From Clostridiales bacterium (lineage in GTDB: Bacteria; Bacillota; Clostridia; Oscillospirales; Oscillospiraceae): a stretch of DNA of 33,891 bases. Numbering within the stretch: position 1 is the stretch's first letter; the number at the start of each line of letters is the position of its first letter. Made by a program: the position numbers and the translations under genes. The notes below the pieces were generated by a model, which was not told where the DNA came from, searched no databases, and worked only from the letters and a program-made list of their open reading frames with translations. Below, one piece after another: positions 2,112-12,625 of this stretch. The DNA is taken from NCBI GenBank assembly GCA_022770345.1, contig JALEII010000060.1, positions 1 to 33,891 of the forward strand, in the 5' to 3' direction.

Positions 2112-3440
2112 TTACTTCAGCCGGTCAATCAGACTTTCCAGCTCCGTACGGACGTCGGCATCATTGTTCAGGATGTTGTCCATGGCGATGACCACATAGT
2201 CGTGCAGGCCGCTGGCGGTGTAGGTGTCGGTCTCGAAGCCGGGATAGGTATAAGCGAAATCCTGCTGCTCCACACCGGCCAACTGTGCCGGGGCGGCGTT
2301 GTCCAGGAACTCCTTGCTGGCGGCCACGGACTTCAGGAAGGGCAGACGGGACTCGCCGGAGTTGATCTTCTGGCACACGTCGTAGGACTGCATATACTGC
2401 ATGAAGATCCAGGAAGCCCAGCGGGTCTCCAGGTCGCCGGAGTTGTCCAGCATGCTCAGCAGGAAGCCCTCGGCGTAATCGGCCTTGGTGCCGTCCTCAA
2501 ACTGAGGAATGGGAGCGCAGGACCACTCGAAGGGAGCGCTCTCGGGAATCTTCATGTTGATGAACTCGCCCTCGTTGCCGGAGCTGATGTACATTTGCAC
2601 CTGCTGATTGGCGAAGGGGCCGGAGAAGAAGAAGTCCTCGCCGGGAGCACGGATGATGCCACGCTCCACCATGCTCTGGTACCAGGAGATAACATCCACG
2701 GCCTCGTCCAGCTTGTCGGCGAAGAGCAGCTTGCCGTCACGGGTTGTGTACCCGATGCCCTTCTGCTCCATCAGGGTGGAGAAGCACTTCACACCCTCGT
2801 CCCAGCCGCCGGCGGGCTTGCCGGTGATTTCGGCGATCTTGGCAGCGGTCTCCTCGAACTCGGTCCAGGTGGTGGGCACACTCAGGCCATTGGCGTTGAA
2901 GAAGTCCACGTTGTAGTACATAACCTCGCAGGCCACGTACAGAGGCAGGGAGTAGAACCCGGCCACAGGATAGCTGCTGCTGTCCTCGATGTAAATGTCG
3001 TAGTAGTCGTCCAGGTTCAGGCCGTGGTTGGCGTTCTCAATGTAAGGGGTCAGGTCCACCACAGAACCGCCCTGGAGCCAGTCGGTGACGGAGGCAGCCT
3101 CGCTCATGGTGACGTTAGGCATATTGCCGGCCTTGATGGCGGCGGTGACGGCATTTTCCAGGTCGCTCATTTCGCCCTTCGCCTGGCAATCCACGGTAAT
3201 GCCCATTTCCTTGCCGATGCCATTGTTGAATGTGTCCACGATCTCGTAGAGGGTCTTCTGCATGTTCTCCTGGACGATACCGTGCCAGAAGGTGATGGTG
3301 ATGGGTTTCGTCAGTTCCACTTCCACATTTTCAGCGGTGGCGTCGCCCTTGTTGTCTCCGGACGGGGTTGTCTTTTCACCGCAGGCCGCAAGGGTCAGCA
3401 CCATGCAGAGGGTGAGCAGAACGCAAAGCCATTTTTTCAT
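2112..3440 (-). CDS. Extracellular solute-binding lipoprotein, ABC sugar/glycerol-phosphate type (UgpB-like)
   Basis: Lipobox signal MKKWLCVLLTLCMVLTLAACGEK; family-1 SBP features (ITITFWHG..., ALPLYVACEVMYYN-type motif); adjacent to cognate permeases and ATPase. Confidence 0.9.
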   Translation of the reverse strand: MKKWLCVLLTLCMVLTLAACGEKTTPSGDNKGDATAENVEVELTKPITITFWHGIVQENMQKTLYEIVDTFNNGIGKEMGITVDCQAKGEMSDLENAVTAAIKAGNMPNVTMSEAASVTDWLQGGSVVDLTPYIENANHGLNLDDYYDIYIEDSSSYPVAGFYSLPLYVACEVMYYNVDFFNANGLSVPTTWTEFEETAAKIAEITGKPAGGWDEGVKCFSTLMEQKGIGYTTRDGKLLFADKLDEAVDVISWYQSMVERGIIRAPGEDFFFSGPFANQQVQMYISSGNEGEFINMKIPESAPFEWSCAPIPQFEDGTKADYAEGFLLSMLDNSGDLETRWASWIFMQYMQSYDVCQKINSGESRLPFLKSVAASKEFLDNAAPAQLAGVEQQDFAYTYPGFETDTYTASGLHDYVVIAMDNILNNDADVRTELESLIDRLK

Positions 3441-5346: not shown

Positions 5347-6402
5347 TTACAGCCGAGCGCCGGTCTCGCAGTCAAAGAGATGGCAGCGCTTCACCGACAG
5401 CCGCAGGCCCACAGTCTGGCCGGGGGCAACGTATTCCTCGGCCCCCAGAATGGCCCGGATGGTGTGGTTTTCCAGCTGGAACGTGACCACCTGGTCCTGA
5501 CCACGCATTTCCACGTCCGTCAACGTGACCCCAATGTCCCCGCCCAGGGACCACGCCTCCGGACGGATGCCCATGCGGACCTTGCCGTTGACGCCGGTCT
5601 TGCAGGGCAGGGTTCTGCCGTCATTCAGGGTGAACACGCCGTCGGTTGCCGTGCCGACCACATAGGAAATGGGCGGGTTGCCCATAAAAGAAGCAACGAA
5701 GGTATTCACGGGGTCCAGGTACATGGTGTGGGCGTCGGCAATCTGCTGCACCACGCCGTGCTTCATCAGCACGATCTCGTCGGTGATGCTCATGGCCTCC
5801 TCCTGATCGTGGGTGACGAAAATGGTCGTGACCTTGGATTCCTGCTGGATTCTGCGAATCTCGCTGCGCATTTCCATGCGAAGCCGGGCGTCCAGGTTGC
5901 TCAGCGGCTCGTCCAGGAGCAGCACATCCGGTTTTTTCACCAGTGCCCGGGCAATGGCCACCCGCTGCTGTTGTCCGCCGGAGAGTTGACCGGGCTTCCG
6001 GTCCAGCATGGTCTCGATCTGCACCAGCTTGGCAATCTCCTCCGCCGCAGCATTCCGCGCCGCACGGCTGAATTTCTTGCCGGTAGCCGGGTCCTTCATG
6101 TTGGACAGGGGGAAGGCAATGTTCTCCCGGACCGTCATGTGAGGGTACAGGGCGTAGTTCTGGAACACCAGGCCCACGTTCCGCTTTTCGGGCATCAGGG
6201 TGGTCACATCCCGGTCCCCGAACCAGATCTCGCCGTCGGTGACGCTTTCCAGACCCGCCAGCATATACAGCGTGGTGGACTTGCCGCATCCGCTGGGTCC
6301 GAGAAGTCCCGTTAGTTTTCCGTCCTGAAAGGTCACATTGATACTGTCAACCGCCGTAGTTTTGTCGAATCTTTTCGTAAGATTTTTTACCTGAACTTCC
6401 AT
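5347..6402 (-). CDS. ABC transporter ATP-binding protein (UgpC/MsmK/MalK type)
   Basis: Walker A GPSGCGKST, signature LSGGQQQR, Walker B DVLLLDEPLSNLD, MalK-type C-terminal regulatory region. Start MEVQVKNLTKRF at 6402 preferred over the ORF start at 6441. Confidence 0.92.
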   Translation of the reverse strand: MEVQVKNLTKRFDKTTAVDSINVTFQDGKLTGLLGPSGCGKSTTLYMLAGLESVTDGEIWFGDRDVTTLMPEKRNVGLVFQNYALYPHMTVRENIAFPLSNMKDPATGKKFSRAARNAAAEEIAKLVQIETMLDRKPGQLSGGQQQRVAIARALVKKPDVLLLDEPLSNLDARLRMEMRSEIRRIQQESKVTTIFVTHDQEEAMSITDEIVLMKHGVVQQIADAHTMYLDPVNTFVASFMGNPPISYVVGTATDGVFTLNDGRTLPCKTGVNGKVRMGIRPEAWSLGGDIGVTLTDVEMRGQDQVVTFQLENHTIRAILGAEEYVAPGQTVGLRLSVKRCHLFDCETGARL

Positions 6403-11008: not shown

Positions 11009-11794
11009 TCACGACACCACCACATTTTTCCGCATGGCCCCGATGGCCCCCTTTTCCAGCCGGGACACCTGGGCCTGGGAAATGCCCACCAGCCCCGCCA
11101 CCTCCATCTGGGTCTTGCCGTCATAGAAGCGCAGGCGCAGAATCTGTTTTTCCCGGTCTCCGAGGCTTTTGAACGCCTCCTTCAAGGCAATATGCTCCAT
11201 CCAGGCCTCGTCGGTGTTCCGCTCGTCCCGGACCTGTTCCATGACCGTCAGGGGGTCCCCACCGTCGGAGTACACCGGGTCATAAAGGCTCACCGGAGTG
11301 CAGACCGCATCCAGTGCCCGGCTGACCTCCTGCTCCGAAATTCCCGCTTCCCGGGCCAGTTCTTCCAGCGTTGGCTCCCGGTCCAGGCTGGCCACCAGCC
11401 GCTCCTTGCACTGCATCACCTTATAGGCCGTGTCCCGGAGAGATCGGGACACCCGGATCACACTGTTGTCCCGCAGATACCGTCGGATCTCCCCGGCGAT
11501 CATGGGCACGCCGTAGGTGGAAAACTTCACCTCTTTGGTGGGGTCAAAGTTGGCGATGGCCTTCATCAGGCCGATGCACCCCACCTGAAACAGGTCGTCG
11601 GGGCTTTCCCCCCGCTTGTCGAACCGCTGGATAACGGACAGCACCAGCCGCAGATTCCCTTCGATCAGGGCCTCCCGGGCCGTTTTGTCCCCGGCCCTGG
11701 TACGAAGCAGCAATTCCTTCATTTCCTTCTGGCTCAGGACCTTCAGCTGGGCGGTGTTCACCCCGCAGATCTCTACCTTTCCCTGCACCTGCAT
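11009..11794 (-). CDS. sigG: RNA polymerase sporulation sigma factor SigG
   Basis: VEICGVNTAQLKVLSQKEMKELL...NLRLVLSVIQRF...DDLFQVGCIGLMKAIANFD...FSTYGVPMIAGEIRRYLRDN...SQAQVSRLEKGAIGAMRK. Start MQVQGKVEICG at 11794. Confidence 0.93.
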   Translation of the reverse strand: MQVQGKVEICGVNTAQLKVLSQKEMKELLLRTRAGDKTAREALIEGNLRLVLSVIQRFDKRGESPDDLFQVGCIGLMKAIANFDPTKEVKFSTYGVPMIAGEIRRYLRDNSVIRVSRSLRDTAYKVMQCKERLVASLDREPTLEELAREAGISEQEVSRALDAVCTPVSLYDPVYSDGGDPLTVMEQVRDERNTDEAWMEHIALKEAFKSLGDREKQILRLRFYDGKTQMEVAGLVGISQAQVSRLEKGAIGAMRKNVVVS

Positions 11795-11817
11795 TTCCTC
11801 CCTTGCGCTTTGCAGAC

Positions 11818-11846
11818 AGTATTTCCCACCGGCGGGCATCTTATCC
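11818..11846 (-). promoter_or_regulatory. Candidate sigma-F/sigma-G promoter of sigG
   Basis: - strand GGATA - 15 nt - GGAAATACT; the -10 fits GGNNANANT, the -35 is one base off GYATA. Confidence 0.4.
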
Positions 11847-12046
11847 CTTTGTGCCATTTTCACAAAGTTTTCCCCGGCGATTTTCTTCCCGGCTGGCCGG
11901 AATTCTTTTCCGTTCGGAAAAAGCCAACTTTTTTCCGGGAATCTCCCGAATAATCCCGGCTGTTGCCTGGAACGACATAACGGAAAATACATCCCAGGAT
12001 GGTTGGATTTTCTCCCCTTTTCCCCCTGGCTCTATGGGGCAGGGGC

Positions 12047-12106
12047 TGTGGAAAAAGTCCTGTGAATAACAATGGTTTTTCCACATTCTCCACAGAGTTT
12101 TCCACA
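12047..12106. promoter_or_regulatory. Cluster of five DnaA-box-like 9-mers
   Basis: TGTGGAAAA (12047-12055), TGTGAATAA (12061-12069; reverse TTATTCACA), TTTTCCACA (12077-12085), TTCTCCACA (12086-12094), TTTTCCACA (12098-12106). Confidence 0.6.
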
Positions 12107-12291
12107 AGGCAGTGGACTTGGGGGAAAAGTTAGTGGTCCCGGATCTAAGTTTCCATAACATCTTGTTCCTGGATTCGACATTTTTCGCACTTTTTCGCCC
12201 CATATAATTTTGCCATCAGCCCCGAAGGACCGGTAAAAAAAGGGCTTGACAGGCTTCTCCTCCGAAAGTTCAAAAAATTTCAAAAAAGGGA

Positions 12292-12320
12292 TTGCTTTTC
12301 TTCAAAATCTGCGCTATAAT
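12292..12320 (+). promoter_or_regulatory. Sigma-A-type promoter for rpsT
   Basis: TTGCTT - 17 nt - TATAAT, ~40 nt upstream of rpsT. Confidence 0.8.
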
Positions 12321-12361
12321 GGGGAACTGCTAAAGCATAGACCAAACGAGGAGGTGGGATC

Positions 12362-12625
12362 ATGCCCAACATCAAGTCCGCTAAGAAGCGTGTCGAACTG
12401 TCTAAGGTCGCTTATGAGAAGAATAAGGCCGAGAAGTCCGCTCTGAAGACGACTCTGAAGAAGTTTGAGGCTGCCGTGGACGGCGGTGACCGTGCCGTTG
12501 CCGAAGGCGCTTACAAGCTGGCCGTCAAGGCCGTGGATCAGGCTGCCGTCAAGGGACTTCTGCACAAGAACAATGCCGCCCGGAAGAAGAGCAGCATGAC
12601 TCTGAAGCTGAACAAGCTGGCCTGA
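12362..12625 (+). CDS. rpsT: 30S ribosomal protein S20
   Basis: MPNIKSAKKRVELSKVAYEKNKAEKSALKTTLKKFE...LLHKNNAARKKSSMTLKLNKLA; GGAGGTGG RBS. Confidence 0.96.
   Translation: MPNIKSAKKRVELSKVAYEKNKAEKSALKTTLKKFEAAVDGGDRAVAEGAYKLAVKAVDQAAVKGLLHKNNAARKKSSMTLKLNKLA

Follow-up and report, generated by a model that had tools for sequence, protein, structure and literature searches.

A strictly spaced cluster of putative DnaA boxes between sigG and rpsT in Oscillospiraceae, a non-origin site that probably titrates DnaA

Introduction

The closest described counterparts of the locus reported here are the non-origin DnaA-box clusters (DBCs) of Bacillus subtilis, found at gcp/ydiF, trmE, ywlC, ywcI/vpr, yqeG/sda and yydA, which are intergenic and lie away from oriC. 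Outside oriC, the sites that DnaA binds most strongly in vitro include one downstream of gcp and ydiF and another upstream of trmE (PMC4447404). Deleting six non-origin clusters was reported to cause early initiation (Okumura 2012, cited in PMC5295017), and restoring one of them partly restored the timing, according to the same review. So far, the DBCs have been regarded as loose clusters and given little weight. The cluster at the sda promoter lies beside a gene bearing on sporulation, which DnaA activates. In the gammaproteobacterium Escherichia coli, the DnaA boxes of datA, a locus outside the origin, act together with a binding site for the DNA-bending protein IHF in DnaA-ATP hydrolysis, and DARS1 and DARS2 are short non-coding DnaA-box clusters acting in nucleotide exchange, with the help of IHF and Fis at DARS2.

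In the 33.9-kb stretch of DNA from an uncultured gut bacterium analysed here (the window), a set of putative DnaA boxes between sigG and rpsT is, like the DBCs, clustered, intergenic and away from oriC, and relatives of this array lie beside tsaD and mnmE, as do two of the DBCs. Unlike the DBCs as described in the accessible part of PMC4447404, it shows a fixed spacing of box starts (0, 9 and 21) and a partner motif, GTTNMCATAA, a difference that is one of description only, and sigG-rpsT does not figure among the regions given there. The array also differs from the sda cluster in being separable from the neighbouring sporulation gene. Place, geometry and partner motif appear to be new for a cluster of the B. 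subtilis kind, and the array probably titrates DnaA. At stake is the timing of initiation in Gram-positive bacteria that lack datA/DARS and SeqA.

Results

The original prediction of five DnaA-box 9-mers in 60 bp (12047-12106), two on the reverse and three on the forward strand, was confirmed at these positions. The gap that holds them, predicted at about 567 bp, indeed spans 11795-12361 (567 bp), provided that sigG starts at Met67, as relatives indicate. The features are the following.

11009..11794, (-), sigG, sporulation sigma factor, flanking; start set at Met67 of the longest ORF
12047..12055, (-), DnaA box TTTTCCACA; array coordinate -30; slot not conserved in the relatives examined
12061..12069, (-), DnaA box TTATTCACA; array coordinate -16, on the reverse strand; in the genus the slot is conserved and frequently reads TTATCAACA
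12077..12085, (+), DnaA box TTTTCCACA; array coordinate 0
12086..12094, (+), DnaA box TTCTCCACA; array coordinate +9; abuts the box at 0
12098..12106, (+), DnaA box TTTTCCACA; array coordinate +21
12149..12158, (+), GTTTCCATAA, the local copy of the partner motif GTTNMCATAA; 72 bp downstream of the array start
12174..12180, (+), TTCGACA, an exact match to the complement of the Spo0A box TGTCGAA; weak evidence
12362..12625, (+), rpsT, ribosomal protein S20, flanking

Four of the five boxes match TTWTNCACA and are the sole such matches in the window, where 1.26 were expected; the fifth, TTCTCCACA, is one position off this pattern. With TTNTNCACA, the densest 60 bp held five boxes against at most two in 400 simulations (first-order Markov, window), and the locus is thus a cluster when at least three DnaA boxes close together are taken to make one. 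Flanked by a sporulation gene on one side and a ribosomal-protein gene on the other, it appears as a compact, strictly spaced set of putative DnaA sites that ends about 255 bp ahead of the rpsT start codon; the start of sigG is about 250 bp away. In the scan of the gap around the array no sigma-70 promoter passed, and Rfam gave no match in the window. On the other side of sigG, its 3' end and rpsB are about 670 bp apart with no Pfam-recognised gene in between (one 85-aa ORF tested), which bears on the predicted rank of the sigG-rpsT gap as the largest intergenic one of the window.

In the genus, the core is a fixed tandem array with box starts at 0, 9 and 21. Measured from start to start, the sigG-rpsT gaps carry a reverse box at -16, the three core boxes, usually a box at 34 and sometimes one at 47, with an additional reverse box at 55 in some relatives; the window copy is without the +34 box and has the extra reverse box at -30. 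The core boxes and their spacing proved to be conserved in all 27 distinct genus loci where sigG adjoins rpsT, 26 of which match the 0/9/21 expression, the 27th (G012) with one mismatch, these loci being related by descent and their counts therefore not independent. A 30-bp array pattern allowing at most one mismatch was found in 57 of the 61 genus genomes used, all drafts, and its reversed control in none of them; the number of copies per genome ranged from none to four. Column information was 1.6-1.9 bits within the array and dropped to 0.1-0.4 for most of the flanking sequence. Further arrays of the genus lie 3' of tsaD, and beside an acyl-ACP thioesterase gene and a Mini-III-like RNase gene, where they are 3-13 kb from dnaA in several genomes; contig C90 of G016 carries an array at 5397.

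Downstream of the array follows GTTNMCATAA or a one-base variant, in 21 of 24 loci at a distance of 70-73 bp, counted from the start of the array. The distances are 61, 70, 71, 72 (nine loci), 73 (ten loci), 82 and 83 bp, the three exceptions (61, 82 and 83 bp) being about one helical turn off, and the phasing gives a mean resultant length of 0.90 for a period of 10.5 bp, most loci sharing 72-73 by descent. TTCGAC elements, like the Spo0A box complement, follow the partner motif in many relatives' loci, a likeness that is suggestive only. Two candidate roles of GTTNACATAA were rejected: that of a genome-wide regulon, because many of the G011 sites examined (40 in all; reversed pattern, 5) looked coding by eye, and that of a promoter -35, because no fitting -10 was seen by eye. 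A longer composite of GTTNACATAA with TTCGAC occurs mainly at arrays.

In other genera of the same family, the rpsT locus carries the array in 2 of 30 genomes, both of genus g37 and the only ones of the 30 with sigG adjacent to rpsT; since the other 28 are devoid of it at this locus, the sigG-rpsT placement is lineage-specific. A third g37 genome has the array at its sigG locus, and it was absent from 27 sigG loci of other genera in the family. The g37 arrays, which were detected with TTNTNCACA and are missed by a CC-only pattern, occupy the same place with the same geometry, their boxes, found as matches with at most two mismatches to TTTTCCACA, reading TTCTGCACA/TTATGCACA/TTTTGCACA or TTGTGCACA/TTTTGCACA/TTTTACACA. 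In all six, departures from TTTTCCACA are limited to positions 3 and 5, at which the DnaA-box consensus is degenerate or tolerant. This confinement of the changes to degenerate box positions is the best indirect evidence for DnaA as the reader.

In the source genome (G000, a draft of 1.66 Mb in 118 contigs, 83% complete), TTNTCCACA gave 110 matches against 19 for the reversed-pattern control, nearly six times as many, most sites being isolated singles. Equally dense clusters elsewhere, which would have weakened the original prediction, were not frequent: among 100 listed of the 110 places, three clusters appeared, at sigG-rpsT, on contig C40 (oriC) and on contig C46. In the C46 cluster (2946-3169), which precedes an RNase III-like gene and rqcH, seven boxes of the TTNTCCACA type are packed into 224 bp, and arrays of its class are those found 3-13 kb from dnaA in several relatives. 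Several intergenic regions, among them the dnaA-dnaN gap, also contain a dispersed short repeat like gtgtaggggcgaggcacgcctcgcccgcc (L034 at about 2950-3060, L033 at about 3230-3330 and L035 at about 1560-1590).

The origin itself could be placed elsewhere. dnaA is absent from the window and lies on contig C40 with dnaN, both on the reverse strand, and the gap between them holds four copies of TTTTCCACA, the same 9-mer as in the sigG-rpsT array. The DnaA of this genome contains DHTTILYA, which we take to be the box-reading signature. In most genus loci examined, the dnaA-dnaN gap has a conserved geometry in which the intervals between successive boxes are about 39, 32, 40 and 107 bp; in G000 an AT-rich stretch follows the boxes. 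This gap is oriC, and the array lies outside it. The cumulative GC skew of a 524-kb contig of G011 (C15) has its minimum near dnaA, where it turns. Around the array, the skew keeps one sign over about 80 kb in G022 (C64) and 92 kb in G030 (C32), apart from single 4-kb bins near zero, and a local skew island adjoins the array in G011 (C11), where about 10.7 kb are inserted between sigG and the array. The array was therefore rejected as an origin, with an oriC of different geometry and no GC-skew switch at the array (G022, G030).

Beyond the genus, the exact array pattern was present in 65 of 394 genomes of the order and a relaxed pattern in 33 of 391 genomes of the class, the reversed control giving zero in both. 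The 156 distinct arrays collected, an uneven sample with gene identities assigned by Pfam, have the following neighbours.

tsaD, 41
mnmE, 21
thioesterase/mrnC, 8
mraZ, 7
sigG-rpsT, 5
dnaA/dnaN, 5
murC-dnaD-like, 3
mutSL, 2
sigG or rpsT alone, 1
unclassified, 63

As gcp is tsaD and trmE is mnmE, the tsaD and mnmE placements match two of the DnaA-bound B. subtilis regions. The mnmE arrays sit upstream of mnmE in sister genera of the Oscillospiraceae; at about 70-73 bp, 18 of 21 have the partner motif in a looser consensus, and in some cases the +34 slot holds an inverted copy, TTATGTNAAC. With the same array and the same motif distance, the sigG-rpsT and mnmE elements resemble a single composite unit that occurs at two locations. 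The tsaD arrays have the boxes in common with them but not the partner motif at that distance; they lie just 3' of tsaD in many Clostridia (L137, L138, L151, L154, L174, L191, L377, L378, L419-L422 and others). The same geometry was also observed at the division cluster gene mraZ (L184, L185, L269, L272, L274, L275), between murC and a DnaD-like gene (L146, L192) and at mutSL (L204, L380), and such arrays could tie DnaA to those genes. A literature search, for which subscription papers were mostly out of reach, found no description of the shared 0/9/21 geometry.

Discussion

This analysis favours a DnaA-binding regulatory or titration site over an origin, in line with the original prediction: the genome's own oriC uses the same 9-mer, the spacing is fixed and conserved, the changes seen in g37 fall at degenerate positions, and the origin reading fails on both geometry and GC skew. 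The further suggestion, a link to sigG or rpsT, has so far found no support. Indeed, the array stays with rpsT while sigG is 10.7 kb (G011) or 3.7 kb (G022) away, it stays with sigG while rpsT is elsewhere (G006, G033), and the same element is also found upstream of mnmE in sister genera. Since insertions part it from either gene and the same unit occurs at mnmE, we favour a role that the array plays independently of its neighbours; together with the phenotype of cluster deletion in B. subtilis, this makes the titration of DnaA, by a non-origin box cluster, the most likely job, and one that we hold to be rather probable. Two points count against it: the review cited above considers the B. subtilis clusters to be without significant role in initiation, the six-fold deletion apart (PMC5295017), and the array is missing at the rpsT locus in 28 of the 30 same-family genomes of other genera.

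From a mechanistic point of view, DnaA would bind cooperatively to the tandem boxes at 0, 9 and 21 and to the reverse box at -16, joined by the box at +34 in most relatives, and the bound DnaA may form a defined nucleoprotein complex. A second protein, or a divergent DnaA site, could be engaged at GTTNMCATAA, about seven helical turns downstream. By analogy with B. subtilis, the main effect would most likely be exerted in trans, DnaA being held away from oriC so that initiation does not come early; sigG or rpsT would be affected only secondarily, if at all. That the geometry is fixed across genera, and that a second motif keeps a helically phased distance from it, argues for selection acting on a defined complex. 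It is conceivable, as a tentative extension, that the array is a relocatable DnaA control module of Clostridia, in which the 0/9/21 boxes, phased with GTTNMCATAA about 72 bp off and its architectural partner, are kept as a unit while the neighbours change (mnmE or sigG-rpsT), acting in trans somewhat like E. coli datA/DARS. The findings also suggest that DnaA clusters beside tsaD and mnmE are common to Bacillus and many Clostridia, and with array and motif as a concrete pattern, such elements can be sought in gut bacteria that are uncultured.

Control in cis, whereby array-bound DnaA would activate or repress sigG or rpsT and so couple replication to sporulation or ribosome synthesis, by analogy with the sda promoter of B. 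subtilis, seems unlikely. The array is intergenic, between divergently transcribed genes, and within the same-family genomes it occurs at sigG/rpsT only where both are adjacent; the element includes the Spo0A-box-like TTCGACA, and DnaA is a transcription factor at sda, trmE, ywlC and other genes (PMC4447404; PMC8203912). An element upstream of two genes, together with the apparent repression by DnaA at B. subtilis trmE (mnmE), leaves such a role some likelihood. The distances to both start codons, the promoter scan of the gap, the retention of the array after insertions in the genus and the occurrence of the same composite element at mnmE all speak against it.

More doubtful still is a datA- or DARS-like activity, in which the DnaA complex would alter the nucleotide state of DnaA by hydrolysis or exchange, helped by a DNA-bending protein at GTTNMCATAA. 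The strict spacing, the helical phasing and the second motif at a fixed distance do resemble DnaA boxes with an IHF site, and the gcp/ydiF cluster of B. subtilis strongly prefers ATP-DnaA (PMC4447404). However, B. subtilis has no known regulator that changes the nucleotide state of DnaA (PMC5295017). It is very improbable that a protein other than DnaA reads the TTTTCCACA repeats: the reader was assigned from sequence, and the second motif shows that another protein may take part, but the same 9-mer fills the oriC of this genome and the g37 boxes depart from it at positions 3 and 5 alone. A second or relocated replication origin at sigG-rpsT, suggested by the density of the boxes and by genes diverging from the gap in the window, can practically be dismissed, given the conserved oriC between dnaA and dnaN in most genus loci examined and a skew that turns at dnaA and keeps its sign across the array.

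Besides DnaA titration, which remains our preferred reading of the array, a minor observation concerns sigG itself. In several same-family genomes (L416 in G145, contig C12; L417 in G440, contig C113; L418 in G198, contig C9; also G115, contig C20, and G273, contig C42), sigG is in two pieces about 6.3-6.9 kb apart, and a large serine recombinase gene (Pfam Resolvase/Recombinase) lies near one junction (L416, L417), which looks like a skin-like intervening element inside sigG.
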